Assembly (NCBI GenBank): GCA_021828055.1
Contig: JAKATH010000011.1
Location: 1 to 44,243, forward strand
Direction: 5' to 3'
From: Actinomycetes bacterium
GTDB lineage: Bacteria; Actinomycetota; Acidimicrobiia; Acidimicrobiales; RAAP-2
Length of the DNA: 44,243 nt
Under the pieces are notes generated by a model. It had not been told where the DNA came from, ran no database searches, and worked only from the letters and a program-made list of their open reading frames with translations. Position 1 is the first letter of the stretch, and every line of letters starts with the position of its first letter. Positions 14,408 through 43,423 of the stretch are shown piece after piece. Both the position numbers and the translations under genes were made by a program.

Positions 14408-15532
14408 TCACCGCTGGCTCTCGTCTCCGGGCCGGGGAAAGACCTCCCCGTCGAAGAGCTTGCGAGCCGTGCGGATGATGCCGGCTCGGATGACGATCGG
14501 GTCGGCACCACTCCGGTCCAGCTCCACCACCGCGTCGAAGGTCCCGGTGGGGTGCTCTACGACAACCGTCGGGGCCGCCTCCGACGGATCCGAGTCCCCC
14601 CACTCGGCGACCTCGGCGGCGGGCGTGCCCGGCAGCAGCGCAGCCGTCGCCACCGAGACGGCGGCCAGCACTCCGATCGCGTCATGGGCCCGGTGGGGAA
14701 TGAAGCTCCGCGTGCAGAGGGTCCCGCCCGCCGTCGGCGTGGACACGAGGGTCATCTTTGGGATCGTCGCCGGGCCGACGTCGCCGAGGCCCATGGCCGC
14801 ACCGGCTTCCAATCGCAGCTTCTCGACGACGGCGCGCAGATCGGCGTTGGCCTCGAGCTCCTCCACCGTCTCGTGCCCCGTGGCGCCGACGTCCGTGGCT
14901 CGCAGGACGACGACCGGCATCCCGTTGTCGACGCAGGTCACCTCCAGCCCGGCGAGCCGGTCGACGACCGATCCGGTCGGCAGCAGGCGTCCGCAGGTGG
15001 AGCCGGCGGTCCCCTCGAAGTCGAGCCGGATCTCCGCCGCCGTGCCGGGCACCCCCGAGATGGCCTGCCGGCCGCTGTAGACGGGTTGGCCACGCTCCAC
15101 GGGGAACGTCGCGATCGCCGTGCCGCCGCCGGTGTTCAGCAGCCGGATCCGCACGACCGCCTCGGTCCCCGAAGCGGTCAGGATGCCGCGCTCCACTGCG
15201 AAAGGGCCCACGCCGGCGAGCAGGTTGCCGCAATTCTGCTGGTCGGTGACGAACGCCCGGTCCACGCCGACTTGGAGGAAGAGGTAGTCGACGTCCATCT
15301 CGGGGTCGGCGGAGGGACCGACGACCGCCACCTTGCTCGTGAGCGGATGGGCCCCACCTATGCCGTCGATCTGACGGGGGTCGGGCGACCCCATGACGCG
15401 CAGCAGGAGGTCGTCCCGTGCGGCCGGGTCGGCCGGCAGGTCGTCACCGACGAAGTACGCGCCCTTGGACGTGCCGCCCCTCATGAGCATGCACCGCAGG
15501 CCCCGCGTCTCGCCGTCCGTGGTCACAGGCAT
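14408..15532 (-). CDS. PrpF/GalD-type isomerase (4-oxalomesaconate tautomerase-like)
   Basis: A 374-residue protein of the PrpF family, cofactor-independent isomerases with two diaminopimelate-epimerase-like halves. MLMRGGTSKGAYF opens the protein, then QIDGIGGAHPLTSKVAVV and QNCGNLLAGVGPFAVE, whose lysine and cysteine match the residues studied in PrpF. In Pseudomonas the family member GalD tautomerises 4-oxalomesaconate in gallate degradation; others isomerise 2-methylaconitate. The neighbouring amidohydrolase and O-demethylase favour the aromatic role, but sequence alone does not separate the two. The ATG at 15532 has a GGGGGT ribosome site. Confidence 0.82.
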   Translation of the reverse strand: MPVTTDGETRGLRCMLMRGGTSKGAYFVGDDLPADPAARDDLLLRVMGSPDPRQIDGIGGAHPLTSKVAVVGPSADPEMDVDYLFLQVGVDRAFVTDQQNCGNLLAGVGPFAVERGILTASGTEAVVRIRLLNTGGGTAIATFPVERGQPVYSGRQAISGVPGTAAEIRLDFEGTAGSTCGRLLPTGSVVDRLAGLEVTCVDNGMPVVVLRATDVGATGHETVEELEANADLRAVVEKLRLEAGAAMGLGDVGPATIPKMTLVSTPTAGGTLCTRSFIPHRAHDAIGVLAAVSVATAALLPGTPAAEVAEWGDSDPSEAAPTVVVEHPTGTFDAVVELDRSGADPIVIRAGIIRTARKLFDGEVFPRPGDESQR

Positions 15533-15676
15533 CACCCCCGGTCGGTCGTCCCGCGCATCACGGTAGCGCGGCCGCACGACGGGCGGCCCTCGAGCGCGTC
15601 GGGCCCGAGCGGCTCCCGAGGACCCAGAACCGGTCTTCGCGCTCGGCCTCGAGCTCGGCAAGGAGCCCGTGGAGCG

Positions 15677-15726
15677 CCCGGCGGCATCAGCCCGGCGGCA
15701 TCAGCCCGGCGGCATCAGCCCGGCGG
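15677..15726. repeat. 14-bp tandem repeat x3 spanning the amidohydrolase stop codon
   Basis: Perfect copies of cccggcggcatcag start at 15677, 15691 and 15705, then a partial copy. The amidohydrolase stop (15715-15717) lies in the third copy, the first reached on the minus strand. Confidence 0.95.
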
Positions 15727-16629
15727 GGACCCCGGGCCGCGCCCGAGCTTCAGCAGCGCCAAGGCGTTCTCCTTCAAGATGAGCGGACGGACCTCGTCGC
15801 GGATCGCGGTCTTCTCGAAGTCTGCGAGCCACCGGTCGGGCGTGAGAACGGGGAAGTCCGATCCGAACAGCATCTTGTGACGGAGCAGGGTGTTCGCGTA
15901 CTGGATGAGGATCGGCGGGAAGTACTTGGGCGACCAGCCGGAAAGATCGATGTAGACCGACGGCTTGTGCAGGCACACCGACAGTGCCTCGTCCTGCCAC
16001 GGGAACGACGGGTGGGCGAGGATGATCGGAAGGTCCGGGAAGTCCGTCGCCACGTCGTCGACGAACATCGGGTTCGAGTACTTGAGCCGGACGCCGCCGC
16101 CGCCGCGCACCCCGGCGCCGACACCGGTGTGACCGGTGTGGAACAGCACCGGCACCTGCAGCTCCTCGATCGCGGCATACAACGCGTAGAGCGCGCGCTC
16201 GTTGGGATAGAACGCCTGGGCGTTCGGATGGAACTTGAACCCTCGCGCACCGTGCTCGGTGACGAGGCGCCTGGCGGCTTTCACCGCGGCCATGCCCGCG
16301 TGAGGGTCGACGCTGGCAAAGGGGATGACCACGTCGGCGTGCTCTCTGGCAAGCGCCGCGATCTCCTCGTTCGTCACCGCCGGCGGCTCGCCCGTGGCGC
16401 TGGTCGCGTCGACCGTGAAGGCCACGCAGGCCATCTTGCGCTCGCGGTAGTACGCGGCCATCTGGGGAACCGTGGCCGCGACCACGTCGGTGTGGAAGTA
16501 GCGCGCCATCGCCTCGGCGCCCTCCGACCCGTGCTCCACGCGCTCGGCGCCGGAGCCGGCCGGGACGTCCACCGAAGCCCACACGTGGGTGTGCACGTCC
16601 AACGCCACGATCTCGTCCACGTTGATCAC
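15715..16629 (-). CDS. Amidohydrolase-2 family metal-dependent hydrolase, aromatic catabolism type
   Basis: A 304-residue TIM-barrel amidohydrolase. Metal-binding features are DVHTH near the N-terminus, GFKFHPN, HTGHTG, LAHPSFPW and FGSDFPVLTPDRW with the final aspartate. The text SNPMFVDDVA and IDLSGWSPKYFPP resembles hydrolases annotated as 4-hydroxyphenyl-beta-ketoacyl-CoA hydrolase (CouO of the Rhodococcus p-coumarate pathway). 4-oxalomesaconate hydratase (LigJ) is another member of the wider superfamily and an alternative, given the adjacent PrpF/GalD-like gene. The GTG at 16629 follows AGAGGTGG. Same strand as the tautomerase gene, 182 bp before it, so probably co-transcribed. Confidence 0.78.
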   Translation of the reverse strand: MINVDEIVALDVHTHVWASVDVPAGSGAERVEHGSEGAEAMARYFHTDVVAATVPQMAAYYRERKMACVAFTVDATSATGEPPAVTNEEIAALAREHADVVIPFASVDPHAGMAAVKAARRLVTEHGARGFKFHPNAQAFYPNERALYALYAAIEELQVPVLFHTGHTGVGAGVRGGGGVRLKYSNPMFVDDVATDFPDLPIILAHPSFPWQDEALSVCLHKPSVYIDLSGWSPKYFPPILIQYANTLLRHKMLFGSDFPVLTPDRWLADFEKTAIRDEVRPLILKENALALLKLGRGPGSPPG

Positions 16630-16711
16630 GTCGCCACCTCTCGAGCGGGCGCGACCCTCCCCGACGTGGTCGCGATGGGTGGCCGCATCGTACACCGCGC
16701 CCATCGGCCAC

Positions 16712-17016: not shown

Positions 17017-18507
<1,491 letters not shown>

Positions 18508-18526: not shown

Positions 18527-19366
18527 ATGGGACCACGCGAAGACGTCGAGGCGAGGATCGCGACGCTGGCGCGCACCGGGGACGTCGAGGTCATCCCCAT
18601 GAAGAGCCTGCAGGAGCAGCTGGCGCTGATCCCGAAGGAGACCACGGTCGCCGTCACCTGCTCGGCCAAGTTCGGGATCCAGCGGACGCTCGACTACGCC
18701 GAGTCGCTCACGCAGGCCGGTCACCGGGTCCGTCCCCACCTCGCCGCACGCCAAGTGCCGGACAAGGCGTACCTCGCTGAGGTCGTGGAGAAGCTCCAGC
18801 GCATCGGCGTGAAGGACCTGTACGTGATCGGGGGCGACGCCGAGGAGCCCGAAGGGAGCTACACGTCGGCCGCGGAGCTCATCGAGGACCTCTCGACGAT
18901 GGACCACGGGCTCACCCTCAGCGTCGGCTGCTACCCCGAGGGCCACCCGAAGATCTCCGACGAGGCGCTGTTCGAGGCGCTGCAGCAGAAGCAGGCATAC
19001 GCGAGCTTCATGGTCAACCAGCTCTGCTTCGACCCGAAGGTGCTCGTGTCCTGGCTCTCGTCGATGCGTGAAGCGGGGATCACGCTGCCGCTCCGCATGG
19101 GGCTCGCACCGCCGATCAGCCCGGCCAAGCTCCTCGACCTCTCGTTGAGGATCGGTGTGGGAACCTCGGTGCGGTACCTGTCCAAGCAGCACGGCGTCGT
19201 CGGAAGCCTCCTGCGGGGCAGGTTCTACAAGCCCGAGAAGCTCCTCGGTCGGCTCGGTGAGGCGCTCGTCTCCCCTGAGATGCACATCGACGGGCTCCAC
19301 ATCTTCTCCTTCAACCAGGTCCAGGCGACCGTCGAGTGGCAACGAAGGGTCGGCGGCTCGCGCTGA
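18527..19366 (+). CDS. metF: Methylenetetrahydrofolate reductase-like protein (MetF family)
   Basis: A 279-residue TIM-barrel flavoprotein of the MetF family. Seen: ETTVAVTCSAKFG, DLYVIGGDAEEPEGSY (the GG-D region near the FAD), SVGCYPEGHPK, and FMVNQLCFDPKVL followed by GITLPLRMGLAPPIS. In SYK-6, metF shares an operon with ligM and turns 5-methyl-THF into methylene-THF. The same two genes being adjacent here supports that catabolic direction over methionine synthesis. The protein is slightly short and diverged from E. coli MetF, like other demethylation-linked copies. It converges on the SDR gene with a 63-bp gap. Confidence 0.87.
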   Translation: MGPREDVEARIATLARTGDVEVIPMKSLQEQLALIPKETTVAVTCSAKFGIQRTLDYAESLTQAGHRVRPHLAARQVPDKAYLAEVVEKLQRIGVKDLYVIGGDAEEPEGSYTSAAELIEDLSTMDHGLTLSVGCYPEGHPKISDEALFEALQQKQAYASFMVNQLCFDPKVLVSWLSSMREAGITLPLRMGLAPPISPAKLLDLSLRIGVGTSVRYLSKQHGVVGSLLRGRFYKPEKLLGRLGEALVSPEMHIDGLHIFSFNQVQATVEWQRRVGGSR

Positions 19367-25795: not shown

Positions 25796-27097
25796 ATGCT
25801 TCATCGTTGGTCGAGGGCGGCGAGACCCGCAGCCCTCGTCGTCGCTGCGTCCGGGCTGGTGCTCGGCGTGCTGGGAGCGAGCGCGGGAGTCGCCGGGGCG
25901 GCCTTCAAGTCCCCCAGCACATACCCGGCCTACGTCGGCGGCCATGGGAAGGCGAACCCGAGGCTCTCGCCCATCACCATCGGCGTCGTGAACCAGCAGA
26001 CAGCCGCCGCCGCCCCGGCCCCGGCGTGGACGACAGGGGTCAAGGTCGGCGTGACATACGTCAACAAGCACACCGGCGGCATCGACGGTCACCCGCTCAA
26101 GGCGGTGTACTGCTCGATCCCGACAACAGTCGGTGCTGCAACCAAGTGCGGGCAGGAGTTCGCCGACAACAGCGCGATCTCCACGGTCCTGGTGGGCGCG
26201 GTCGACGTGGGCAACACAGCGCTCGAGTCGGCGCTCAAGCCTGCCAAGATACCGCAGTACTTCGCGGTGTCCTTGAGCACCGTCGACGAGCACGACCCGT
26301 ACGGCTTCATCCTGTACAACACAGCGACGCAAGTCGAGGCGCCGATGGCAAGCGTCGCCCACGACCTGCACATGAAGTCCATCTCGCTCGTCTACCCGTC
26401 GGACATCCCGGGCAACGTGTACCAGGCCAAGGTGGTCTACGACGCGCTGAAGTACGTGGGCATCAAGCACATCTACAAGGTCGGGTTCACATCGAACGCC
26501 ACGAGCTTCTCAGCGCCGTTCGAAGCTGCGCACGTGGGCCACACCACACTGCTCATCGTGGTCAACAGCGGCGGCCCCGCCTGCTCGGACGCCTACTTGA
26601 CCCTCAAGTCGCTCGGCGTCGCCACAAAGCAGAAGGTGCTCGTCAACGTGCCGTGCGACACGCCGACAATCGCCAAGGCTGACGGCGGCACGCTGCCGCA
26701 CAACTGGTACTACCTGACGGCCAACCCGCTGCCGGGCTCGCCGACACCGGCTGTCACAGCTGCGGTGAAGGCGTTCACGCCGTACGGCAAGGGTCCGATC
26801 GCCTACGACGCCTGGGCCGCCGACGCGTTCGGCCAGGTGCTGACCGTCGCCAAGCTCGACACCGAGATCCTGAAGGCGCACCGGAAGGTCACCCGGGCCA
26901 CGGTGTTCGCGAAGACGAGAGCGTTCAAGGGCCCGATCGTGCAGGGAGCCCCGCACCTCGCCTGCGGCCGCTTCAAGGGCACCCCGGCGACGTGCAACAA
27001 CCTGGACCGGTTCTTCAAGAACACCGCGCCGAACGTGATGAAGCCGCTCGGCACATGGATCGGCCCGCCGAAGGGCTTCAAGCCGCCGCTGTCATAG
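25796..27097 (+). CDS. livK: Liv-type ABC transporter substrate-binding protein
   Basis: A 433-residue exported periplasmic-binding protein (type I fold). The signal peptide is clear: basic start MLHRWSRAARP, hydrophobic core ALVVAASGLVLGVLGAS and an AGA-like cleavage site. The mature part begins with ITIGVVNQQTAA, and the usual second-strand pattern YVNKHTGGIDGHPL follows. It is the fifth component of the importer (permease fusion, LivG, LivF). The ATG at 25796 lies 8 bp after GGAG; an earlier frame start at 25670 would add a lysine-rich repeat before the signal peptide and was rejected. Codon use is odd: roughly 15 of about 36 threonine codons are ACA, which is nearly absent from neighbouring genes. 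The ligand is not predictable. Confidence 0.88.
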   Translation: MLHRWSRAARPAALVVAASGLVLGVLGASAGVAGAAFKSPSTYPAYVGGHGKANPRLSPITIGVVNQQTAAAAPAPAWTTGVKVGVTYVNKHTGGIDGHPLKAVYCSIPTTVGAATKCGQEFADNSAISTVLVGAVDVGNTALESALKPAKIPQYFAVSLSTVDEHDPYGFILYNTATQVEAPMASVAHDLHMKSISLVYPSDIPGNVYQAKVVYDALKYVGIKHIYKVGFTSNATSFSAPFEAAHVGHTTLLIVVNSGGPACSDAYLTLKSLGVATKQKVLVNVPCDTPTIAKADGGTLPHNWYYLTANPLPGSPTPAVTAAVKAFTPYGKGPIAYDAWAADAFGQVLTVAKLDTEILKAHRKVTRATVFAKTRAFKGPIVQGAPHLACGRFKGTPATCNNLDRFFKNTAPNVMKPLGTWIGPPKGFKPPLS

Positions 27098-27115
27098 CGC
27101 GGCGGCTTCTTTCCT

Positions 27116-27165
27116 CCCGCCGCCGCAGCGGCCTCGGTCCGTCCGAGGTCCGCTGCGGCGGCGGG
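27116..27165 (+). terminator. Long GC-rich hairpin after livK
   Basis: Arms 27116-27137 and 27143-27165 pair over 22 bp with one bulged T and a 5-base loop (tccgt). There is no T-tract, so it may be a Rho-independent-like terminator of the actinobacterial type, or a 3' stabiliser that protects livK mRNA and lowers readthrough into the E1 genes. The rest of 27098-27240 holds only the next ribosome site. Confidence 0.7.
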
Positions 27166-27240
27166 GGGCCGCCCACATCGCGACCTGACCCAGACCCGCG
27201 CTCTCCGAGGGGAGAGCCTCCGGAGGAAGGAGCCCCAGCA

Positions 27241-28296
27241 ATGGCAAACGCCAACGCGACGGACGGGAGCGCCCCCGAGGCGCTCGACCCCGAACGCCTC
27301 GTCTGGATGTACACCCAGATGTACCGCATCCGCGAGTTCGAAGAGCGGGTGAAGTCGACCTTCACCGAGCACCCCGGGATCCTCCGGGGCCACACCCATC
27401 TCGCCGACGGCGCCGAGGCGTCGATCGTCGGGTCGGTCGCGGCGTTGGCGCCGGGCGACCAGATCGTCACGACCTACCGGTGCCACGGCTACCCGATCGC
27501 CCTCGGCACCGACACGAAGCGCATGATGGCCGAGATCTACGGCAAGGAAGGCGGCCTGTGCGGCGGCCTCGGCGGGTCGATGCACCTCTACGACGTCGAC
27601 CGCGGCTTCCTCGGAGGCTCGGGGATCGTCGCCCAGGCCATCCCGCACGCGACCGGGGCCGCCTGGGCGGCCCAGATCCGTCGCCAGGGCCAGGTGGTCG
27701 TCTGCTTCTTCGGCGACGGCGCGAGCAAGCAGGGGGCCTTCCACGAGTCGCTCAACATCGCCTCGCTGTGGAAGCTGCCGATCGTCTACGTGATGGAGAA
27801 CAACCGCTACCAGGCCTCCACCCGCACCGACCAGGAGGACGCCAACGCCGCGAGCGGCGAGCCGCTGTCGACGAAGGCCAAGGCCTACTCGATGGAGGGG
27901 GTCACGGTGGACGGCGCAGACCCCGTGGCCGTGCACGCGACGCTGGCCGACGCGCTCGCGCGTGCACGCTCCGGCACGGGCCCGACGCTCGTCGAGTCGC
28001 TCGTCTACCGCCTTTCCGCCCACGGCAACCTGATCGCCCCGCCCGGGGTGCCCCTCAACTACCCCGAGCACGAGGCGATCGCCATCTTCGGCAACAGGGA
28101 CGAGTACGAGGCCGCCCTGCGGGGCGACCCGGTCCCGCGCTTCCGCCACCAGCTCGTCACCGAGGGGACCCTGTCCGCCGCGGACGCCGACGCGATCGAG
28201 CAGGCGGCCCGAGAAGAGATCGACGAAGCCCAGCGCTTCGCCCTCGACAGCCCCTGGCCGGCCCCGGACAGCGGCCTCGCCTACGTCTACGCATGA
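27241..28296 (+). CDS. Thiamine-diphosphate-dependent dehydrogenase E1 component, alpha subunit (pair 1)
   Basis: A 351-residue E1 alpha subunit of the pyruvate/acetoin dehydrogenase type, decarboxylating a 2-oxo acid or cleaving acetoin with TPP. Family text: MYRIREFEERV, GHTHLADGAEA, TYRCHGYPIALG, GGLGGSMHLYD and the TPP-magnesium motif GDGASKQGAFHESLNIA ending in ENN. The ATG at 27241 follows GGAGGAAGGAG. The matching beta gene starts 46 bp downstream. No E2 or E3 gene is present in the window, so acyl transfer must use proteins coded elsewhere, or the pair works differently. Confidence 0.87.
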   Translation: MANANATDGSAPEALDPERLVWMYTQMYRIREFEERVKSTFTEHPGILRGHTHLADGAEASIVGSVAALAPGDQIVTTYRCHGYPIALGTDTKRMMAEIYGKEGGLCGGLGGSMHLYDVDRGFLGGSGIVAQAIPHATGAAWAAQIRRQGQVVVCFFGDGASKQGAFHESLNIASLWKLPIVYVMENNRYQASTRTDQEDANAASGEPLSTKAKAYSMEGVTVDGADPVAVHATLADALARARSGTGPTLVESLVYRLSAHGNLIAPPGVPLNYPEHEAIAIFGNRDEYEAALRGDPVPRFRHQLVTEGTLSAADADAIEQAAREEIDEAQRFALDSPWPAPDSGLAYVYA

Positions 28297-28342
28297 GCGG
28301 GGCCCGACCCATGGCTCAGCTCTTCTACAGGGAGGAAAGCCA

Positions 28343-29323
28343 ATGTCGCACGTGATCCCTTACATCGCGGCCATCCAGGAAGCCATCAGAGAGGAGATGG
28401 AGCGCGACGAGCGCGTCCTGTACTTCGGCCAGAACATGGCCACCTCGCCCGAGGACCCGTTCCTGAAGCAGTTCGGCCCCGACCGGGTCAGGGTCACGCC
28501 GATCTCCGAGACGGCCGAGATCGGCATGGCGACGGGCGCGGCCGTCGCCGGCTACCGGCCGGTCGTCGAGCTCTACATGGCCGAGTTCCTCCTGGTGGCG
28601 ACCGACCAGGTCGTGAACGAGGGCACGCGTTTCCACTTCATGTCGAAGGGGGCGGTGTCGGTCCCGATGGTGATGGTGGCGGGGTACGGCTTCACCGCAG
28701 GGTGGGCGGGCCAGCACACCGGGTCGATCTACGGGATGTTCATGGGCGTGCCGGGCTTGAAGGTCGCCCTGCCCTCGACGCCGGCCGACGCCAAGGGGCT
28801 CATGACGACGGCCATCCGCGACGACAACCCGGTCCTCTTCTTCCAGAACTACCTCCTCCTCCTCGAAGAGGGGGAGGTGCCCGACGGCGAGCACGCCGTC
28901 CCCTTCGGGGTGGCCGACGTGAAGCGGTCGGGCAGTGATCTCACCCTCGTGGCGACCGGGTACGCCGTCCACACCGCGCTCGGAGCCGCCGAGTCGCTCG
29001 CCCGCCGCGGGGTGAGCGTCGAGGTGATCGACCCCCGCACGATCGCCCCCCTCGACGTCGACACGATCCTCTCCTCGGTCGCCCGCACCGGTCACCTCGT
29101 CCTGGTCGACCAGGCGACCCGGCACTCCTCGGTGGCGGCCGTCATCGCCGCCGAGGTCGCGGAGCTGGGCTTCTCCTCGCTCGAGGCCCCGATCTCCATG
29201 GTCACCGCGCTCGACTCCTCCATCGCCTACAGCAAGCCGGTCGAAGAGTTCGTCCTGCCCGACGAGCACAAGGTCGTGCGGGCCGTGGAGGCGTCGCTCG
29301 GGCTCGCCCCGGCCTCGTCCTGA
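28343..29323 (+). CDS. Thiamine-diphosphate-dependent dehydrogenase E1 component, beta subunit (pair 1)
   Basis: A 326-residue transketolase-type beta subunit. The N-terminus (IPYIAAIQEAIREEMERDERV) and TPISETAEIGMATGAAVAGYRPVVE are characteristic, with the conserved glutamate that activates the TPP ring in SETAE. HFMSKG and QHTGSIYGMFMGVPGLKV form the active-site region. The C-terminal domain holds EVIDPRTIAPLD. The ATG at 28343 follows AGGGAGGAA. It is followed after 1 bp by the second alpha gene, so all four E1 genes look like one operon. Confidence 0.88.
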   Translation: MSHVIPYIAAIQEAIREEMERDERVLYFGQNMATSPEDPFLKQFGPDRVRVTPISETAEIGMATGAAVAGYRPVVELYMAEFLLVATDQVVNEGTRFHFMSKGAVSVPMVMVAGYGFTAGWAGQHTGSIYGMFMGVPGLKVALPSTPADAKGLMTTAIRDDNPVLFFQNYLLLLEEGEVPDGEHAVPFGVADVKRSGSDLTLVATGYAVHTALGAAESLARRGVSVEVIDPRTIAPLDVDTILSSVARTGHLVLVDQATRHSSVAAVIAAEVAELGFSSLEAPISMVTALDSSIAYSKPVEEFVLPDEHKVVRAVEASLGLAPASS

Positions 29324-29324
29324 G

Positions 29325-30365
29325 GTGGCCGGCGGCGGGACGGGGGACCCCGGCGGCGGGGCGGGGGACCCCGGCGGCGGGGCGGAGGACCCCGGCGGCG
29401 GGGCGCTCGACGCCGCCGCAGCCGAGCGCCTGCTCGCAACGATGTGGCGGATCCGCGCCTTCGAGGAGCGTCTCGAGCCGCTGAAGCGCTCGAGCATGGT
29501 CCACGGGCTCACCCACCTGAGCATCGGCCAGGAGGCCGTGGCAGCGGGGGTGTGCACCCAGCTGCGGGACGACGAGCCCGTCTACTCCAATCACCGGGCG
29601 AACGGCCACGCGCTCGCCAAGGGAGTCGACATGGGCAAGCTCCTGGCCGAGCTCATGGGGCGTGCGGACGGGTGCTGTCGAGGGCTCGGCGGCTCGATGC
29701 ACGTGGTCGACGTCGCCCACGGCTTCCTCGGCGCGACGGGGGTGGTCGGGGGCAACCTCCCCTTTGCCGTCGGCTCCGCCCTCGCAAGCCGCCTCCTCGG
29801 GCGGGCCCGGCCCGCCGTCGTCTTCTTCGGCGACGGCGCAGCCCAGACCGGCATCTTCGCCGAGACCGTGAACCTGGCCAGCCTGTGGCAGGTCCCGGTC
29901 GTGTTCGTCTGCGAGAACAACGGCTTCGCCGAGTTCACCCCCCGGTCGGCCCACACCCGGGTGGAGCGGGTGAGCGACCTCGCAGCACCGTTTTGCGTCG
30001 CGGCGAGGACCGTCGACGGCAACGACGTCGTCGAGGTCCACGGCGCCTTCGCCGACGCGCTGAGCCAGGCTCGGGCGGGCAGCGGCCCTTACCTCCTCGA
30101 GTGCCTCACCCACCGGCTCTCGGGCCACTACGTCGGCGACCCAGGCGGCTACCGAGCCGCCCTCGAGGACGAAGCGTGGCGAGCCAGGGACCCCATCGCA
30201 CGCCTCGTCCGGCAGGCTGCCGCGGCCGGCTGGTTCGACGCGGAGCACGCGCGCGCCGCCGAAGCGGCAGCGCGCGACGAGGTGGAGGCCGCGGTCGCCT
30301 TCGCGCTCGGGAGCCCGTTCCCGGACCCGAGCATCCCCGCCGAGCTCACCTACGCGCGCTCATGA
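29325..30365 (+). CDS. Thiamine-diphosphate-dependent dehydrogenase E1 component, alpha subunit (pair 2)
   Basis: A 346-residue E1 alpha subunit, clearly diverged from pair 1. Family text: MWRIRAFEERLEPL, HLSIGQEAVAAGV, YSNHRANGHALAKG, CRGLGGSMHVVD and the TPP motif GDGAAQTGIFAETVNLA ending in ENN. The start is a GTG at 29325, one base after the previous stop and without a ribosome site, so it depends on coupling. The first ~30 residues are a glycine-rich GDPGGGA repeat made by a 21-bp tandem triplication, with no counterpart in the family. The stop overlaps the next ATG (atga). Confidence 0.86.
   Translation: MAGGGTGDPGGGAGDPGGGAEDPGGGALDAAAAERLLATMWRIRAFEERLEPLKRSSMVHGLTHLSIGQEAVAAGVCTQLRDDEPVYSNHRANGHALAKGVDMGKLLAELMGRADGCCRGLGGSMHVVDVAHGFLGATGVVGGNLPFAVGSALASRLLGRARPAVVFFGDGAAQTGIFAETVNLASLWQVPVVFVCENNGFAEFTPRSAHTRVERVSDLAAPFCVAARTVDGNDVVEVHGAFADALSQARAGSGPYLLECLTHRLSGHYVGDPGGYRAALEDEAWRARDPIARLVRQAAAAGWFDAEHARAAEAAARDEVEAAVAFALGSPFPDPSIPAELTYARS
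29341..29403. repeat. 21-bp tandem repeat x3 at the start of the second E1 alpha gene
   Basis: Copies at 29341-29361, 29362-29382 and 29383-29403, the last with one changed base. Each encodes GDPGGGA or EDPGGGA. The unit is a multiple of three, so the gene stays open. Confidence 0.95.
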
Positions 30366-31336
30366 CCGAGACGACCTACGCCGCCACCATCGCCGCCACC
30401 CTCGCCGCGGCGATGCGCGCGGACGAGCGTGTCGTGGTGCTGGGCGAGGACGTGGCGCTGGGCGGTCCGTACCTCGCGACGAAGGGGCTCGCCGAGGAGT
30501 TCGGCACCGCCCGCGTCGTGAACACCCCCATCAGCGAAGCGGCGATCTGCGGGGTCGCCATCGGCGCTGCCCAGTCCGGCCTGCGCCCGGTCGTCGAGGT
30601 GATGTTCGTCGACTTCATCGGGCTCGCCCTCGATCAGCTCGTGAACGGGGCCGCGAAGGCCCACTTCATGTCGGGAGGGCAGCTCTGCGTGCCGATGGTG
30701 CTGCGCACCCAGGGTGGGGCGGGCCAGCGCGGCGCCGCGCAGCACTCCCAGAGCCTCGAGAGCTGGCTGACCCATGTGCCCGGGCTGAAGGTCGTCGTCC
30801 CTGCGAGCGCCCGCGAGGTGGCCGCGCTCCTGCCGAGCGCCATCGCCGACCCGAACCCCGTCGTCGTCGTCGAGTCCAAGACGCTCTACTTCCGGCACGA
30901 GACGCTCCCCGACGAAGGGGTCTCCCCCGAGCCGCTCGGGCACGCGCGGGTGGTGCGACGAGGAGACGACGTGACCATCGTCGCCACGTCGAAGATGGTC
31001 CACGAGGCGACCGAGGCCGCGGCCCGCCTCTCCGAGCACGGCGTCGAAGCCGAGGTGATCGACCCGCGCACGCTCGTCCCCCTCGACCTCCCGACGATCG
31101 CCGCCTCGGTCAGGCGCACGGGACGGCTGGTCATCGCCCACGAGGCAGTGGAGCACGGCGGCTTCGGGGCGGAGATCGCTGCGGAGGTCCAGGAGGCGTG
31201 CTTCTACGACCTCGACGCCCCGATCGTCCGCGTCGGCGCGCCCTTCACCCCGGTGCCGCTCAGCCCCGCCCTCGAGGACGCCTACGTGCCCGGCACCGCC
31301 GAGATCCTCGACGGCGTCCGCCGGGTCCTCGGTTGA
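30362..31336 (+). CDS. Thiamine-diphosphate-dependent dehydrogenase E1 component, beta subunit (pair 2)
   Basis: A 324-residue beta subunit. It shows VVVLGEDVALGGPYLATKGL, NTPISEAAICGVAIGAAQSG with the catalytic glutamate, MRTQGG-like LRTQGGAGQRGAAQHSQS, PGLKVVVPASAREV and EVIDPRTLVPLD. It is nearer to acetoin dehydrogenase AcoB and branched-chain E1 beta than the pair-1 protein, whose substrate loop differs (AGWAGQHTGS). The ATG overlaps the alpha stop. No E2/E3 gene follows. Two diverged E1 pairs side by side suggest two substrates served by one shared E2/E3. Confidence 0.87.
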   Translation: MTETTYAATIAATLAAAMRADERVVVLGEDVALGGPYLATKGLAEEFGTARVVNTPISEAAICGVAIGAAQSGLRPVVEVMFVDFIGLALDQLVNGAAKAHFMSGGQLCVPMVLRTQGGAGQRGAAQHSQSLESWLTHVPGLKVVVPASAREVAALLPSAIADPNPVVVVESKTLYFRHETLPDEGVSPEPLGHARVVRRGDDVTIVATSKMVHEATEAAARLSEHGVEAEVIDPRTLVPLDLPTIAASVRRTGRLVIAHEAVEHGGFGAEIAAEVQEACFYDLDAPIVRVGAPFTPVPLSPALEDAYVPGTAEILDGVRRVLG

Positions 31337-32259: not shown

Positions 32260-33186
32260 TCAGAAGAGCGGCCAGGGTCCGATCGACAGCGTCGTGTGCT
32301 GCATGACCCCGCCGAGCACGGCGTTGCGCACCAGCCACACGTCCGTGACGGGACCGACTCCGCCGGGTACCGGGGTGAGCGCCTCGGCTCGCTGCGCCAC
32401 GCTGTCGAAATCGAGGTCCCCGACGAGGTGGACCCGGCCGTCCTTTCCCTCGACGGGGTTGATCCCGACGTCGATCGCGATCACGCCCTGTTTCACCATG
32501 TCGCCGGTGACCAGCTCCGGGGAGCCGGCGGCCACGATCAGCACGTCCGCCTGGCGGGTGAACTCGGCCAGCCTCCCCGCCTCGGAGGCGTGCTCGTCGC
32601 AGCTCACGACGATGGCTCCCCGGTCCAAGCCGAGCCAGACGGCGGGCTTGCCGACGTTGTGGCTCCTGCCGACGATCACGATCGTCTTGCCCCTCAAGGC
32701 CGTGCTGGGGTCGCGACCCGTCTGACGGAAGTAGTCGTCGAGCAGCCAGAAGCAGCTGGCCGGCGTCGAAGGGACGAACCGGGGGGTGCCGCGCGCCATC
32801 AGCCCGGCATTGGCGGGATGGACCGCCTCGACGTCCTTCAGCGGGTCGAGCGTGGGGTACAGCTCCACCTCCGAGAGCTGGGCGGGAAGGGGGCGGAGCA
32901 CGAGGATCCCGCTGATCCTCGGGTCCGCGTTCAGCTTGCCGATGGTCGCAAGGGCTTCGGCGAGCTCCGCGTCGCGGGGCAGGCGCTCGGGCTGGAACCG
33001 GCAGCCCACGTTCTCCGCCAGCCGGCGGAGCCGGCGCTCGTAGGCGTGGGCGGCGTAGTCCTCGCCCACCACCACGCTCGCCAGCCCGGGGTCGACCTTG
33101 GACGAGCGCACCGCAGCGAGCTCGCCGAGCAGCCGGGCACGGAGGTCCCTCGACACGGCTGCCCCGTCGATGATCGTCGCTTCCAT
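32260..33186 (-). CDS. folD: FolD paralogue 1, predicted methylene-THF dehydrogenase lacking the cyclohydrolase lysine
   Basis: A 308-residue FolD-fold protein. The dinucleotide site is intact: IVIVGRSHNVGKP at ~170-181, with VDVGIN-like IDVGINPV later and the C-terminal PGGVGP. The folate site is altered. The YxxxK pair of bifunctional FolD reads Y49 E R R L53, so the cyclohydrolase lysine is leucine. VQLPLP reads VLRPLP, losing the glutamine, and KDVDG reads KDVEA. Comparable replacements occur in the monofunctional NAD-dependent yeast enzyme Mtd1. The stretch after strand two (SCDEHAS) is acidic where NADP enzymes have HSRT, suggesting NAD. It lies 12 bp after FolD 2 in the same operon, which supplies the lysine. 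Confidence 0.85.
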   Translation of the reverse strand: MEATIIDGAAVSRDLRARLLGELAAVRSSKVDPGLASVVVGEDYAAHAYERRLRRLAENVGCRFQPERLPRDAELAEALATIGKLNADPRISGILVLRPLPAQLSEVELYPTLDPLKDVEAVHPANAGLMARGTPRFVPSTPASCFWLLDDYFRQTGRDPSTALRGKTIVIVGRSHNVGKPAVWLGLDRGAIVVSCDEHASEAGRLAEFTRQADVLIVAAGSPELVTGDMVKQGVIAIDVGINPVEGKDGRVHLVGDLDFDSVAQRAEALTPVPGGVGPVTDVWLVRNAVLGGVMQHTTLSIGPWPLF

Positions 33187-33198
33187 GACCTCAACCTC

Positions 33199-34101
33199 TC
33201 ACACGTGGTCGTTCCCCTGCGGCAGCCCCTTCGCAGCACCGAGCGCGCCGGCGGCCCGCGCGGCGTCGACGGTGTTGCGCAGGAGCAAGGCGACGGTCAT
33301 CGGGCCGGCGCCACCAGGGTTCGGCACGAGGGCCCCGGCGACCTCGGCCACCCGGGGATCGACGTCGCCGGTCAGCTTGCCCCCGACGAAGGAGACGCCG
33401 ACGTCGACGACGGTCGCGCCAGGTTTGACCCACTCGGCCCGCACCCAGTGGGGTCGGCCGGCGTCCGACACGACGAGGTCGGCGGCCCGGCACGCTTCGG
33501 CCACGTCGCCACAACCGGGGTCCACGACCGTCACCGCGGCGCACCCCTTCCCTCCGGCGCCTTCGGGCGCCGAGAGCATGAGGGCCAACGGAAGGGCGAC
33601 GAGCGGTCCGCGCCCCGCGATGACGGCGCGTCGGCGGGCGAGCTGGACGCCGTGGCGCCCGAGAAGGTCGAGGATGCCGGCAGCCGTGCACGGCCGGATG
33701 CCGGGTGCGCCCTGCACGAGCCTTCCAAGTGAAGTGGAGGTCATGCCGTCGACGTCCTTGCCGGGGTCGATGCGGGACGCGGCCGCCAGCTCGTCCAAGC
33801 CCTCGGGGAGCGGCAGCTGCAGCAGGATGCCGTGGACGCTCGGGTCGGTCGAGAGGGAGAGGAGCTCCTCTTCCAATCCGTCCTGGGACACGGACGCCGG
33901 GAGGTGCACCGCCCGCACGCTGAGGCCGACGCGCTCGGCGGCGTCGTGCTTCAGCGCCACGTAGCGGGCGCTCGCCACGTCGTCGCCCACCAGCACGGTG
34001 GCGAAGGTGATCCGCGGGCGGCCACCGGCCTCGACCTCGGACCGCAGGGACTCCAAGATCTCGTCTCTTCGGGCCCTGCCGTCGCAGATGCGCGCCGCCA
34101 A
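33199..34101 (-). CDS. folD: FolD paralogue 2, predicted methenyl-THF cyclohydrolase with degenerate NAD(P) motif
   Basis: A 300-residue FolD-fold protein. The catalytic folate site is conserved: RYVALKHDAAERVG gives Y47 and K51, GILLQLPLP keeps the glutamine (~95), and KDVDGM keeps the aspartates. The dinucleotide motif is degraded: GRSxxVGKP of the family reads GRGPLVALP (~163-171), losing serine, glycine and lysine, and the loop after it is lengthened (SAPEGAGGKG). A cyclohydrolase without dehydrogenase activity is the simplest reading. Stop and start are nearly abutting with Fhs (1 bp) and FolD 1 (12 bp), so the three are one operon. Confidence 0.84.
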   Translation of the reverse strand: MAARICDGRARRDEILESLRSEVEAGGRPRITFATVLVGDDVASARYVALKHDAAERVGLSVRAVHLPASVSQDGLEEELLSLSTDPSVHGILLQLPLPEGLDELAAASRIDPGKDVDGMTSTSLGRLVQGAPGIRPCTAAGILDLLGRHGVQLARRRAVIAGRGPLVALPLALMLSAPEGAGGKGCAAVTVVDPGCGDVAEACRAADLVVSDAGRPHWVRAEWVKPGATVVDVGVSFVGGKLTGDVDPRVAEVAGALVPNPGGAGPMTVALLLRNTVDAARAAGALGAAKGLPQGNDHV

Positions 34102-34102
34102 G

Positions 34103-35800
34103 CTAGGACAGCCCGACGATCTGGCCGTCGGCGTCGAGATCGATGGAGAAGGCAGCGGGGTTGCCCCCGAGCCCCGGCATGGTGCGCATGTCCCCGCAGA
34201 TCGGGTACACGAAGCCCGCCCCGACCGATGCGCGCACTTCCCGGACGGGAAGCGTCCACCCCGTCGGGGCGCCTTTCAACGCGGGGTCGGACGAGATCGA
34301 CAGGTGGGTCTTGGCGATGCACACCGGCAAGCTCCCGAACCCGGCCGCCTCGTAGCGGTCGAGGGCACGGGCCGCCGCCGGGGCGTACGACACGTCCGCG
34401 GCGCCGTACACCTTGGTCGCCACCGTGCGGATCTTGTCCCGGAGCGGCATGTCGTCTGGGTAGAGCATGTGGAATCGGGAGGGCTCGTCCGCCGCCTCGA
34501 CGACCGCCTCGGCGAGCGCGACGGCGCCGGCGCCGCCCTTGGCGAAGTGGTGGCAGACGGCGCTCCTCGCCCCGCTCGACGCCGCGATCTCTGCGACGGC
34601 GTTCCACTCGGAGGGGTGGTCGGTCGGGAAGGCGTTGATCGCGACGACCGGGGTGACCCCGTGGATCTTGATGTTCTCGATCTGCTTCCGCAGGTTGGAC
34701 CCGCCCGCGTGCACCTCGTCGGGGTTCTCCGCGAGGAGGGCCTCGGGCAGGGGCCTTCCTGCGACGACGCGGTGGTTGCCGGTGTGGGTCTTCAGGGCGC
34801 GGACGGTCGCCACGACGACGGCGGCGTCGGGAGTGAGTCCCGAGTACCGGCACTTGATGTTGAAGAAGCGCTCGGCCCCCATGTCGGCTCCGAAGCCGGC
34901 CTCGGTGATGAGGAAGTCCCCGCTCCTGATGCCGATCTGGTCGGCCAGGATGGAGCTGTTGCCGTGGGCGATGTTGCCGAACGGGCCCGCGTGGACCAGA
35001 ACAGGGGTGTTCTCCAACGTCTGGAGGAGGTTCGGCTTCAGAGCGTCGCGCATCAGGACCGCCATCGCACCCGCCGCCTTCAGCTCCTCCGCGGTGACCG
35101 GCGCGCCCTCGTCCGTGTAGCCGACGACGATGCGCCCGAGGCGAGACCGGAGGTCGGAGAGCGAGGTGGCGAGGGCGAAGATCGCCATCACCTCGGACGC
35201 CGCGGTGATGTCGAACCCGGTCTGGCGCGTGACGCCGTCCTCATGCGGGCCGAGACCGATCACGATGTTGCGAAGGGAGCGGTCGTTCACGTCCAGGACG
35301 CGCCGCCAGGTGATGTCGTCCAGGGAGAGCCCGAGGGCGTTGCCCTGGAAGAGGTGGTTGTCGATGATCGCGGACAGGAGGTTGTGCGCCTCGGTGACGG
35401 CGTGGAAGTCGCCGGTCAGGTGGAGGTTCAAGATCTCCATCGGCACGACCTGGCTGTACCCCCCGCCAGCCGCCCCTCCTTTGATCCCGAAGGTCGGGCC
35501 CATCGACGGCTGGCGAATGGCGACCGTCGCCTGCCTCCCGATGTGGCGCATCGCCTGGCCCAGCCCCACAGTCGTGGTCGTCTTCCCCTCGCCGAGCGGC
35601 GTCGGGGTGATCGCCGACACCACCACGTACTTCGCCTTCGGGCGCTCCGAGAGCTCTTCGACCGCCTCGAGCTTGATCTTGGCGACCGCAGATCCATAGG
35701 GCTCCAAGAGGTGCTCACCGATCCCCATCGACGCTGCGATCTCGTTCAACGGCTTCAAGGAGGCGGCGCGTGCGATGCCCAGGTCGGATGGGAAGGCCAT
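34103..35800 (-). CDS. fhs: Formate-tetrahydrofolate ligase
   Basis: A 565-residue enzyme interconverting formate, ATP and THF with 10-formyl-THF. Seen: the P-loop ITPTPLGEGKTTTTVGLGQ near residue 60, RQPSMGPTFGIKGGAAGGG, HAVTEAHNLLSAIIDNH, the formate/folate-site text ITEAGFGADMGAE, and TGNHRVVAG. Length is family-normal. The ATG at 35800 begins AFPSDLGIARAA; the frame is open 45 bp further. In SYK-6 the homologue ligH accompanies ligM and metF and disposes of the methyl carbon, where running in reverse can yield ATP. It heads an operon with two FolD paralogues and is divergent from the molybdenum hydroxylase gene (175-bp gap). Confidence 0.93.
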   Translation of the reverse strand: MAFPSDLGIARAASLKPLNEIAASMGIGEHLLEPYGSAVAKIKLEAVEELSERPKAKYVVVSAITPTPLGEGKTTTTVGLGQAMRHIGRQATVAIRQPSMGPTFGIKGGAAGGGYSQVVPMEILNLHLTGDFHAVTEAHNLLSAIIDNHLFQGNALGLSLDDITWRRVLDVNDRSLRNIVIGLGPHEDGVTRQTGFDITAASEVMAIFALATSLSDLRSRLGRIVVGYTDEGAPVTAEELKAAGAMAVLMRDALKPNLLQTLENTPVLVHAGPFGNIAHGNSSILADQIGIRSGDFLITEAGFGADMGAERFFNIKCRYSGLTPDAAVVVATVRALKTHTGNHRVVAGRPLPEALLAENPDEVHAGGSNLRKQIENIKIHGVTPVVAINAFPTDHPSEWNAVAEIAASSGARSAVCHHFAKGGAGAVALAEAVVEAADEPSRFHMLYPDDMPLRDKIRTVATKVYGAADVSYAPAAARALDRYEAAGFGSLPVCIAKTHLSISSDPALKGAPTGWTLPVREVRASVGAGFVYPICGDMRTMPGLGGNPAAFSIDLDADGQIVGLS

Positions 35801-35975
35801 CGCACAAGGGTAGCGCGCGGGTCGAAACCCGAAGGGGTGGCGCACGACTGCCGCCGCGCCCGCGCCAGTGTCGGGACGAGGGGCAGACGTCGAGGTCGGG
35901 CGCAGCGCAGCAGGGGACCCGACGGAGGCAGATGGCTATGCTCGGTCCGAACTTCGACCGCAGGAGACCCGAACC

Positions 35976-38249
35976 GTGAGCTTTCTTGGCAATCGCGTCC
36001 TCCGCAAGGAGGACGCGAAATTCCTCACCGTCGGCGGCTCGTACGTCGACGACCTCCACCTTCCGTCCGCGCTGTGGGTCGGCTTCCTGCACTCCCCCGT
36101 CGCGCACGCCCGCGTCACCCGGCTCGACGTCTCCGCGGCCCGTTCCGCGCCCGGAGTGGTGGACGTGCTGACGGGCGCCGACCTCGGCCTCCCGCCGCTC
36201 CCTCCCGACCTCCCCATGATCAACCCGCAGATGACGCGCCCTCTTCTCTGCGAGGCCAAGGTCCGGTTCGTCGGTGACCTCGTCGCGGCAGTCGTGGCCG
36301 AGTCGCGCCCCGCGGCGGTCGACGCCCTCGAGCTGATCGAGGTCGACTACGACCCGCTGCCGGCCGTGGTCGGCGCCGAGGAGGCGCTCGCGAGCACGAC
36401 GTTGCTCTTCGAGGAGGCGGGGACCAACGTCGCCTTCGAAGCGTCGTTCGGGCACGACGAGTCGCTCTTCGACGATTGCGAGGTCGTCGTGAGCCAGCGC
36501 ATCGTCAACCAGCGGCTCGCGCCCTGCCCGCTCGAGGTGCGCGCGGCCGCAGCCTGGGTCGAAGAGGACGGGCGGCTCACCGTCTTCGCCTCGAGCCAGG
36601 CTCCGTTCGGGCTGCGAGACGCGATCGCCCGCGAGCTCGCACTCGAGCCCGGGGCCGTGCACGTCGTGTCGCCCGACGTCGGCGGCGGCTTCGGATCGAA
36701 GGCTCCCGCGTACCCCGAGGAGCTGCTCGTCGCGGCGCTCGCCTGGCGGCTGCGCCGTCCGGTGCGCTGGGTGGAGACGCGCTCGGAGAGCATGGTGAGC
36801 CTCGGCCACGGGCGAGCCCAAGTCCAGCAGGTGACGATCGGCGGGTCGCGCGACGGGCGCGTCCAGGCGTACCGGCTGGAGATCGTCCAGGACGCGGGGG
36901 CGTACCCCGCCATCGGCGCCTTCCTGCCGATGTTCACGCGCATGATGCTCACCGGCACCTACGACATCGCAAAGGTCGAGTGCAACTTCACCTCGGCCGT
37001 CACCAACACCACCCAGCTCGTGCCCTACCGCGGCGCAGGCCGGCCCGAGGCGACCGCTGCCGTCGAGCGGGCGATGGACCTGTTCGCGGCAGAGATCGGG
37101 GTCGACCCCGCCGAGGTGCGCCGGCGCAACGTCGTGGCGGGGACCGATCGCTTCCCCTACACGACCCCGACCGGCACGGAGTACGACATCGGCAGCTACG
37201 ACACCGCGCTGGCGCGCCTGCTCGAGACGTCCGGCTACGCAGAGCTCCGTGCCGAGCAACGGGCGCGGCGCGAGTCGGGCGATCCCGTCCAGCTCGGACT
37301 GGGGCTCTCGGTCTACGTCGAGATCACCAACGGCCTCCCCGGGAGCGAGTTCTCCTCGGTGGAGATCCGCCCCGACGGCAAGGCCGTCGTCAAGACGGGG
37401 ACCTCGCCCCATGGGCAGGGCCACGACACCGCGTGGTCGATGCTCGTGGCCGACGAGCTCGGGATCCCGCTGGAGGACGTCGAGTTCATCCACTCCGACA
37501 CCGATCGCGTGGCGCGGGGGGTCGGCACCTTCGGCTCCCGCTCGCTGCAGACGGGGGGCGTGGCAGCCAAGCAGGCGGCGGTGCAGGTCGTGGCCGCGGC
37601 CAAGGAGCTCGCCGCGGAGCTCCTCGAGGCCTCGCCGGACGACGTCGTCGTGGCCGAGGGCGGCGGCGGCATGCACGTCGCGGGCTCGCCGGCCGCCGGG
37701 CGCAGCTGGGCGGAGCTCGCCGCCGCAGCGATGGAGAAGGGCGGCCCGCTCCTGGCCGAGGTGGACTTCAGCGCGCCGGGGCCGACCTTCCCCTTCGGAG
37801 CGCACCTGGCGGTCGTCGAGGTGGAGCTCGAGACCGGACGCGTGGCGCTGCGCCGGCTGGTGGCGCTCGACGACGCCGGTCGCATCATCAACCCGCTCCT
37901 CGCCGAGGGGCAGATCCACGGTGGCCTCGCCCAAGGTGCGGCGCAGGCGTTGATGGAGGAGTTCCGCTACGACGAGCTGGGCAACCCGCTCACCTCGAAC
38001 CTGGCGGACTACCTGTTCATCAGTGCCACCGAGCTCCCGAGCTTCGAGACCGTGACGATGGAGACGCCGACGCCGCGCAACGAGCTCGGCGCGAAGGGGA
38101 TCGGGGAGTCCGGCACCATCGGCTCGACCCCTGCGGTCCAGAACGCCGTCGTGGACGCCGTCTCGCACCTCGGCGTACGCCACATCGACATGCCTGCGAC
38201 CCCCGAGAAGGTGTGGCGGGCGATCTCCGACGCGCAGCGGACGGCCTGA
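35976..38249 (+). CDS. Molybdenum hydroxylase large subunit (xanthine dehydrogenase/CoxL family), orphan
   Basis: A 757-residue large subunit that binds molybdenum-cytosine dinucleotide. Features in order: LRKEDAKFLTVGGSYVDD, GPVxxGGFG-like SPDVGGGFGSKAP, the active-site loop PYRGAGRPEA (as in form II CoxL-like proteins, not the CO-oxidising AYxCSFR form), and GAKGIGESGTIGS with the catalytic glutamate near the C-terminus. The GTG at 35976 follows AGGAG by 9 bp. The usual FAD (medium) and iron-sulfur (small) subunit genes are not adjacent: downstream lies a convergent gene after 39 bp, upstream a divergent one. It may use subunits coded elsewhere. An aromatic aldehyde or N-heterocycle substrate is a guess. 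Confidence 0.87.
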   Translation: MSFLGNRVLRKEDAKFLTVGGSYVDDLHLPSALWVGFLHSPVAHARVTRLDVSAARSAPGVVDVLTGADLGLPPLPPDLPMINPQMTRPLLCEAKVRFVGDLVAAVVAESRPAAVDALELIEVDYDPLPAVVGAEEALASTTLLFEEAGTNVAFEASFGHDESLFDDCEVVVSQRIVNQRLAPCPLEVRAAAAWVEEDGRLTVFASSQAPFGLRDAIARELALEPGAVHVVSPDVGGGFGSKAPAYPEELLVAALAWRLRRPVRWVETRSESMVSLGHGRAQVQQVTIGGSRDGRVQAYRLEIVQDAGAYPAIGAFLPMFTRMMLTGTYDIAKVECNFTSAVTNTTQLVPYRGAGRPEATAAVERAMDLFAAEIGVDPAEVRRRNVVAGTDRFPYTTPTGTEYDIGSYDTALARLLETSGYAELRAEQRARRESGDPVQLGLGLSVYVEITNGLPGSEFSSVEIRPDGKAVVKTGTSPHGQGHDTAWSMLVADELGIPLEDVEFIHSDTDRVARGVGTFGSRSLQTGGVAAKQAAVQVVAAAKELAAELLEASPDDVVVAEGGGGMHVAGSPAAGRSWAELAAAAMEKGGPLLAEVDFSAPGPTFPFGAHLAVVEVELETGRVALRRLVALDDAGRIINPLLAEGQIHGGLAQGAAQALMEEFRYDELGNPLTSNLADYLFISATELPSFETVTMETPTPRNELGAKGIGESGTIGSTPAVQNAVVDAVSHLGVRHIDMPATPEKVWRAISDAQRTA

Positions 38250-42584: not shown

Positions 42585-42787
42585 CGCCGGCTCCTTTGTC
42601 TCGCCCGACTCGAGCTCTCCCCGTGACATCTCCTCGCGCTCGCCGCGCGAGAAAGATCGCCGTCAGCCTTGCACACATCGGTCGCCCGGAGTCAGGCTGG
42701 CGCCGGACCTGCCGGACCTGCCGGCGCCGGACGCGCCGGACGCGCAGAGCCGGCCGGCCGGGAAGACCGAGGGGGCAAGGAGGCTGC
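42585..42787. promoter_or_regulatory. Divergent promoter gap with short duplications
   Basis: This 203-bp gap must hold the promoters of the PEP-utilizing gene (minus) and the NTF2-like gene (plus). It contains two pairs of 9-bp duplications: ccggacctg at 42703 and 42712, ccggacgcg at 42727 and 42736. No clear -35/-10 pair was seen. Confidence 0.4.
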
Positions 42788-43396
42788 GTGCAGCATCGTG
42801 AGGACCGCGCCGTCATCCGGGACCTGGTCGAGGAGTGGGCGGTCTGGCGCGACTCGATGGACTGGGACCGCTTCAGCCAGGTGTGGCACCGGCCGGGCCG
42901 CATGAACGCCACGTGGTTCCAGGGCTCTGCGGACGACTTCATCTCGGCCAGCCGTGAGGCCGCCGCCCGCGGCGCGAACATCCTCCATTTCCTCGGCGGC
43001 ACCGCGGTCGACGTCGCAGGTGCGCACGCCCTCGCCCAGACGAAGATGACGATCTCCCAGCGCGCGTCCGTCGAGGGGGTGGAGTGCGACGTGGTCTGCA
43101 CCGGCCGGTTCTACGACTTCTTCGCCGTGCGGGACGGCCGGTGGGGCCTCGTGGAGCGGCAGCCCATCTACGAGAAGGACCGGATCGACCCGGTCGACCC
43201 GTCGGCGCGCCTCGAGCTCGAGAGCGAGCTCCTCGACGCCTTCCCTCCGGGCTACCGGCACCTCGCCTATCTCCAGACCAGGATCGGCTACTCGGTGAAG
43301 CCGGACATGCCCGGCCTCACCGGCCCGGCAGTCGAGAGCCTCTACGAGCGGGGGGCGAGATGGCTCGCCGGCGACGAGTCCGTCGTGGGCGGCTGA
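42788..43396 (+). CDS. NTF2/SnoaL-like domain protein
   Basis: A 202-residue protein with an NTF2-like cone fold: RDLVEEWAVWRDSMDWDRFSQVWHR at the N-terminus, HFLGGTAVDVAGAHALAQTKM in the middle, and GRFYDFFAVRDGRWGLVERQPIYEKDR at the sheet end (quoted in part). Such SnoaL_4 proteins include hydratases, isomerases and non-catalytic binders. The C-terminal ~60 residues (GYRHLAYLQTRIGYSVKPDMPG) form an extension found in some actinobacterial relatives. The GTG at 42788 follows AAGGAGG by 5 bp. Its place next to the aryl-kinase-like gene suggests a role in the same aromatic pathway, but the reaction is unknown. Confidence 0.75.
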   Translation: MQHREDRAVIRDLVEEWAVWRDSMDWDRFSQVWHRPGRMNATWFQGSADDFISASREAAARGANILHFLGGTAVDVAGAHALAQTKMTISQRASVEGVECDVVCTGRFYDFFAVRDGRWGLVERQPIYEKDRIDPVDPSARLELESELLDAFPPGYRHLAYLQTRIGYSVKPDMPGLTGPAVESLYERGARWLAGDESVVGG

Positions 43397-43423
43397 GGTG
43401 GGCGGCTGAGGTGGGCGGCTGAG
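43385..43423. repeat. 13-bp tandem repeat x3 at a gene junction
   Basis: Three perfect copies of gtgggcggctgag. The NTF2-like stop codon lies in the first copy. The third ends directly before the next ATG (43424), so the repeat sets the intergenic spacing. Confidence 0.95.

Follow-up and report, generated by a model that had tools for sequence, protein, structure and literature searches.

Two distantly related FolD proteins in an fhs operon of an actinobacterial genome: a probable route for oxidising one-carbon units from aryl O-demethylation

The fhs-folD2-folD1 operon and its neighbourhood

The window, the whole stretch of DNA analysed here, is a 44-kb contig (G000:C139) of a 2.64-Mb MAG which, among named genomes, is closest to MAGs carrying the labels Acidimicrobiales and Actinomycetes. 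Three of its genes form a tight run on the minus strand. The first, at 34103..35845, encodes the formate-tetrahydrofolate ligase Fhs (PF01268, 834 bits), and is followed by two genes of the FolD family, folD2 at 33199..34101, for a predicted methenyl-tetrahydrofolate (methenyl-THF) cyclohydrolase, and folD1 at 32260..33186, for a predicted NAD-dependent methylene-THF dehydrogenase. A single base stands between the Fhs stop and the TTG with which folD2 begins; the gap from folD2 to folD1 is 12 bases, and a GAGG-type ribosome-binding site precedes the ATG of folD1. Both FolD proteins score far above the gathering score for PF00763 and PF02882 and belong to the FolD superfamily. Their AlphaFold models (seven sequences each as input; mean pLDDT 84 for FolD2 and 76 for FolD1) match FolD crystal structures along the whole chain, a match that speaks only for conservation of the fold and says nothing on the binding of a cofactor. 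All three genes are under purifying selection, with dN/dS values of 0.08-0.24 for FolD1, 0.23-0.37 for FolD2, and at most 0.19 for Fhs.

On the plus strand, the gene at 17086..18507 encodes LigM, the THF-dependent vanillate/3-O-methylgallate O-demethylase and putative source of methyl-THF, which scores 886.5 bits against the cut-off of 580 of the equivalog model NF047885. It is directly followed by a MetF-like methylene-THF reductase (18527..19366, plus strand) that is predicted to oxidise methyl-THF to methylene-THF. The ligM-metF pair and the fhs-folD2-folD1 run lie on different strands with about 13 kb between them, and therefore do not form one operon. Adjoining ligM on the minus strand is an Amidohydrolase_2 family gene (15715..16704) for a possible ring-cleavage-pathway hydrolase or hydratase, and at 14408..15661, also on the minus strand, lies a PrpF-family gene for a possible 4-oxalomesaconate tautomerase of the protocatechuate/gallate pathway; both are assigned at the Pfam level only. 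Another contig of the same genome (G000:C64:8467-9810) encodes a second LigM/DesA-like O-demethylase (L181), which shares 49% identity with the LigM of the window and scores under the cut-off for LigM.

Divergent from fhs is a plus-strand gene (35868..38249) for a molybdenum subunit of the xanthine dehydrogenase/CoxL family, which adjoins fhs in G007-G010 too; none of the annotated window genes was recognised as encoding a partner subunit. Positions 26992-31336 hold two successive E1-alpha/E1-beta gene pairs of 2-oxoacid dehydrogenases, about 40% alike, and then a cupin gene. At 40743-44167 a PEP-utiliser mobile-domain protein (PRK08296 type) and an adjoining ORF without a family match are reminiscent of aryl-ketone phosphotransferase systems.

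Residue changes in the two FolD proteins

The preliminary description of this DNA had given the position and the motifs of both FolD proteins, all of which match exactly, and had noted the loss from FolD1 of residues required for cyclohydrolase. FolD1 carries the motifs YERRL, VLRPLP, KDVEAVH, GRSHNVGKP, and SCDEH, and thus lacks K54, Q98, and D121 (residue numbering is that of E. coli FolD). The losses stand and can be refined, in that Leu replaces Q98 and is followed by a conserved Arg (position 99), Glu replaces D121, and Ala replaces G122. Because of the conserved Arg that follows position 98, the folate pocket looks remodelled and not decayed. A search of the class and of named genomes recovered homologues at 43-97% identity, and the changes K54 to L/V/I, Q98 to L, D121 to E, and G122 to A are fixed in essentially all of the 60-member FolD1 clade (about 57-60 homologues) and in none of 48 ordinary FolDs of the class that served as controls. 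The patterns of the locus scan included KD[VI]EAVH, so fixation of the D121 change is partly selected there; no pattern covered K54 or Q98, and pattern-free protein searches of whole genomes recovered the same signature. Among the 58 positions with an identity of 95% or more across the controls, V51, K54, Q98, D121, G122, C141, G145, and M266 are lost from FolD1 proteins, and FolD2 keeps nearly all of these. Tyr50 and the GRSxxVG loop are retained in FolD1. The YxxxK lysine, Gln98, and Asp121 of E. coli-type bifunctional FolDs are lacking from FolD1 and from its clade as a whole. No description of this signature was found in the open-access literature searched, which is part of the whole literature.

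In the human enzyme, K56 and Q100 set the environment for hydride transfer, K56 may be the proton-transferring residue of the cyclohydrolase reaction, folate is bound by D125 and Y52, and H196 belongs to an Arg-His-Ser set that binds the 2'-phosphate of NADP (PMC3368264). The cyclohydrolase of MTHFD2 needs neither cofactor nor ions (PMC9173628). Judged by its residues, FolD1 is very probably without cyclohydrolase activity. Since the dehydrogenase reaction, too, involves K56 and Q100, the same losses could weaken that activity in FolD1, unless the conserved Arg99 compensates. In about 52 of 57 FolD1 proteins, Asp takes the place of the NADP-type His190 according to one alignment, the FolD1 beta-2 block being shifted by three columns in the 58-position comparison, and this replacement points to NAD as the cofactor of most FolD1 proteins.

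His190 is kept in L095 and in a small sub-clade (L097, L100, L112, and L143) that has no cyclohydrolase lysine and retains an NADP-type CHSRT-like sequence, suggesting that loss of the cyclohydrolase came apart from the presumed switch to NAD; this branch offers a natural test of cofactor switching. In the Acidimicrobiaceae MAG NAT100 (L105:10001-10867), an in-frame stop inside the KDIEAVH motif of FolD1 is either a sequencing error or the mark of a pseudogene. The FolDs of two Bacteroidales loci (L159 and L160) read YVASC, with Cys for the cyclohydrolase lysine, and keep Q98 and KDVDG.

FolD2 carries the motifs YVALK, LQLPLP, KDVDG, and GRGPLVALP. As in bifunctional FolDs, K54, Q98, and D121 are present, and they are invariant in 7/7 orthologues; the changes are in the cofactor pocket. 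Positions 172, 190, and 209 are Ala, Asp, and Asp (G172A, H190D, A209D) in all seven FolD2 proteins, and Gly, His, and Ala in 48/48 controls. Positions 209 and 190 are the equivalents of A215 and H196 in the human enzyme, both listed as NADP contacts (PMC3368264). Two further substitutions near the pocket, P143A and V263A, are common to all seven orthologues, and Arg167 is Thr in three of them. The loop GRGPLVALP had been called ruined; the motif is as described, yet it is altered and conserved. Its GRG is ordinary (Gly occurs there in 21 of the 48 controls), and it is the change of VG to VA that is unusual (7/7 FolD2, 0/48 controls). Asp at the end of beta-2 is a classic sign of NAD binding, and because this residue is conserved FolD2 may still be a dehydrogenase. 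On its sequence, dehydrogenase activity of FolD2 is doubtful.

Among the 58 control-invariant positions, FolD1 has lost about 12 and FolD2 about 8, with 3 shared against about 1.7 expected. Complementary loss as something statistically special in itself was rejected on these counts; the case rests on which residues are lost and not on how many.

Ancestry, distribution, and the slot between fhs and folD1

A FolD tree of 128 rows, built in quick mode, places FolD1 and FolD2 in well-supported separate clades with sequences of other lineages between them. FolD1 is one clade (SH-aLRT 99), mainly of Actinomycetota, with an armatimonadotal branch sister to the rest. FolD2 falls among the FolDs of a different Acidimicrobiales family (support 96), and for two members of that group, those of G042 and G067, the gene comes immediately after fhs. 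Elsewhere in the window genome there is a third FolD, which is complete and groups with its own family. Because of the separate clades, the pair appears to have been assembled from two distant lineages; the proteins are not sister copies, and the suggestion of a bifunctional enzyme split by subfunctionalisation does not survive in its evolutionary sense.

FchA (FTCD_C, PF04961) is a methenyl-THF cyclohydrolase unrelated to FolD. The order Fhs-FchA-FolD1 is found in nine FolD1 loci, and FchA abuts FolD1 upstream in 7 further loci and downstream in 3. The window lacks the fhs-fchA-folD arrangement, the slot between fhs and folD1 being occupied by FolD2, and the order Fhs-FolD2-FolD1 recurs in six loci besides the window, all of the window lineage. 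No FTCD_C gene was found in the window genome or in any of the six window-genus genomes with FolD1, an absence that is affected by MAG incompleteness. FTCD_C is present in 25 of the 35 other FolD1 genomes versus 51 of 395 in the class, where most matches are open frames of about 550-680 aa, unlike stand-alone FchA. Neither FchA nor FolD2 was found in the other 10 of the 35, some of which are incomplete. FchA genes were found with an iterated HMM, a single-sequence search having missed divergent ones. The simplest reading of the slot is that FolD2 performs the reaction of FchA; a replacement of FchA by such a FolD was not found described in the open-access literature searched, a part of the whole. 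Ten loci of Omnitrophota also have the order Fhs-FchA-FolD, with K54 replaced by Gln and D121 by Glu in FolD. This loss of cyclohydrolase residues beside Fhs and FchA (L145-L156, L158) is apparently independent of FolD1.

Six of 61 related genomes have LigM above its cut-off, and it is exactly these six, and no others, that have FolD1. The chance of this overlap is 1/C(61,6) = 2e-8 if the genomes are treated as independent, and 1/1716 within the genus, neither figure allowing for kinship. Fhs is wider among these relatives (19/61), and because LigM co-occurrence is exact while Fhs is wider, FolD1 goes with THF-dependent demethylation. FolD1 loci with LigM and MetF are found in Pseudonocardia, Nocardia, Streptomyces, Amycolatopsis, Mycolicibacterium, and others. 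In other FolD1 loci the neighbours are formate dehydrogenase, genes resembling those of the N-methylglutamate pathway (GmaS, MgsC), or Fhs together with sarcosine-oxidase-like genes. The catabolic one-carbon context proposed beforehand is borne out by this distribution and by LigM-MetF in the window.

In the two closest species (G008 and G009), the DNA around the operon is about 95% identical to the window. In both, the Fhs and FolD1 proteins are intact and 96-98% identical, LigM exceeds its cut-off, and MetF, checked in G008, is 97% identical. FolD2 persists in both as short remnants between fhs and folD1. An assembly error as the cause of this gap was rejected, the two MAGs being separate, with shared remnants such as GCGCGGAAGGCTGA, differing deletion extents, and flanks at 94-95%. 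FchA was not found in either species, and an ordinary FolD is present elsewhere in both. As FolD2 is lost where the rest of the pathway stays, its predicted cyclohydrolase is not essential in those two species, and presumably the ordinary FolD supplies the activity. Together with the third FolD of the window genome, this removes the notion that the cell needs FolD1 and FolD2 to make up one complete FolD.

A candidate oxidation route and its alternatives

It is likely that the fhs-folD2-folD1 operon oxidises one-carbon units from THF-dependent aryl O-demethylation, with FolD1 acting as a dehydrogenase only and FolD2 as the cyclohydrolase in the FchA slot. In the route that we infer, its two FolD activities, cofactor use, and direction of flux included, LigM would pass the methyl group of a methoxyl to THF and MetF, running in the oxidative direction, would yield methylene-THF. 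FolD1, probably with NAD, would convert this to methenyl-THF, which FolD2 would hydrolyse to 10-formyl-THF, and Fhs in reverse would release formate and ATP. FolD2 would then be an fhs-linked FolD recruited to the FchA position of related operons, and not one half of a duplicated FolD. That FolD2 has become a dedicated methenyl-THF cyclohydrolase through loss of its cofactor site, displacing FchA and with FolD1 rebuilding the work of one FolD in trans within an operon for lignin-methoxyl oxidation, is a proposal with about an even chance of being right.

Much depends on how the cofactor pocket of FolD2 is read. It is conceivable, if somewhat unlikely, that FolD2 is still bifunctional and has switched from NADP to NAD through H190D, FolD1 being an additional NAD dehydrogenase that increases the capacity for oxidation, with no division of labour. 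Retention of all catalytic residues, the invariant beta-2-end Asp, and the ordinary Gly-for-Ser in the loop are as expected of such an enzyme, whereas fixation of G172A and A209D, the carboxylate that A209D brings to a listed cofactor contact, and the Arg167 substitution are not. The same changes might be the early decay of a gene that is being lost and retains little function. The remnants in G008 and G009 and a dN/dS about 1.5-2 times that of FolD1 fit such a fate, which is nevertheless rather improbable given clearly purifying selection and the invariant K54, Q98, and D121; moreover, the cofactor-site changes are common to all orthologues, which are 67-76% identical to the window protein, and hence are old and fixed.

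Genes in tandem whose products have lost opposite key residues would suit a subfunctionalised duplicate of one bifunctional FolD. The tree rules this origin out, barring an artefact of strong convergence, and with FolD1 present without FolD2 in more than 50 loci, and a complete FolD elsewhere in the genome, it is scarcely credible. For FolD1, the replacement of three residues important to both activities might mean that it is no dehydrogenase at all and has some other folate-binding or regulatory role. Such a role is very unlikely in view of the retained cofactor-loop residues, the strong purifying selection, and the position beside Fhs and methyl-transfer genes; in the Omnitrophota operons, where a dehydrogenase is expected, K54 and D121 have been replaced independently.

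Dozens of actinobacterial annotations as bifunctional FolD probably denote dehydrogenase-only enzymes tied to demethylation of lignin methoxyl groups, sarcosine/betaine, or methylamine, and the YERRL/LRPLP/KDVEAVH signature together with neighbouring genes would provide a simple rule for re-annotation. The FolD1 signature could also be of use in predicting lignin degraders that oxidise one-carbon units from their genomes, and in engineering NAD-linked one-carbon modules. Replacement of FchA by a FolD in one operon slot would be a clean case of non-orthologous displacement.

Several known systems invite comparison. Yeast Mtd1 (PDB 1EDZ) is a monofunctional NAD-dependent methylene-THF dehydrogenase, and FolD1 is predicted to resemble it as an NAD dehydrogenase without cyclohydrolase. 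The parallel, drawn already in the preliminary description, holds as functional analogy and fails as kinship: FolD1 is of a different lineage, with weak similarity to Mtd1 (E 1.4e-4) versus 1.8e-49 to the best bacterial FolD. The bifunctional FolDs of E. coli (1B0A) and M. tuberculosis (2C2X) share their fold and both Pfam domains with FolD1 and FolD2, but catalytic residues are missing from FolD1 and the cofactor pocket is altered in FolD2. FchA would share with FolD2 its presumed reaction and its operon slot, although the protein families are unrelated and none was found in the window genome. In Acetobacterium woodii, the methyl branch of the Wood-Ljungdahl pathway is encoded by fhs1-fchA-folD (Awo_c09260-09280; PMC10472528), which, like FchA-bearing FolD1 loci, has a distinct cyclohydrolase gene flanked by fhs and by a folD whose product is designated the dehydrogenase; the window differs in having a second FolD for FchA and in its apparent tie to the oxidation of methoxyl carbon, not to acetogenesis. 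Vanillate and syringate catabolism in Sphingobium SYK-6 uses a LigM-MetF-LigH/Fhs one-carbon route (PMC9296663), and the window likewise brings together a LigM equivalog, MetF, and formate-THF ligase, differing from SYK-6 in its actinobacterial host and in the two apparently specialised FolDs that lie beside Fhs.
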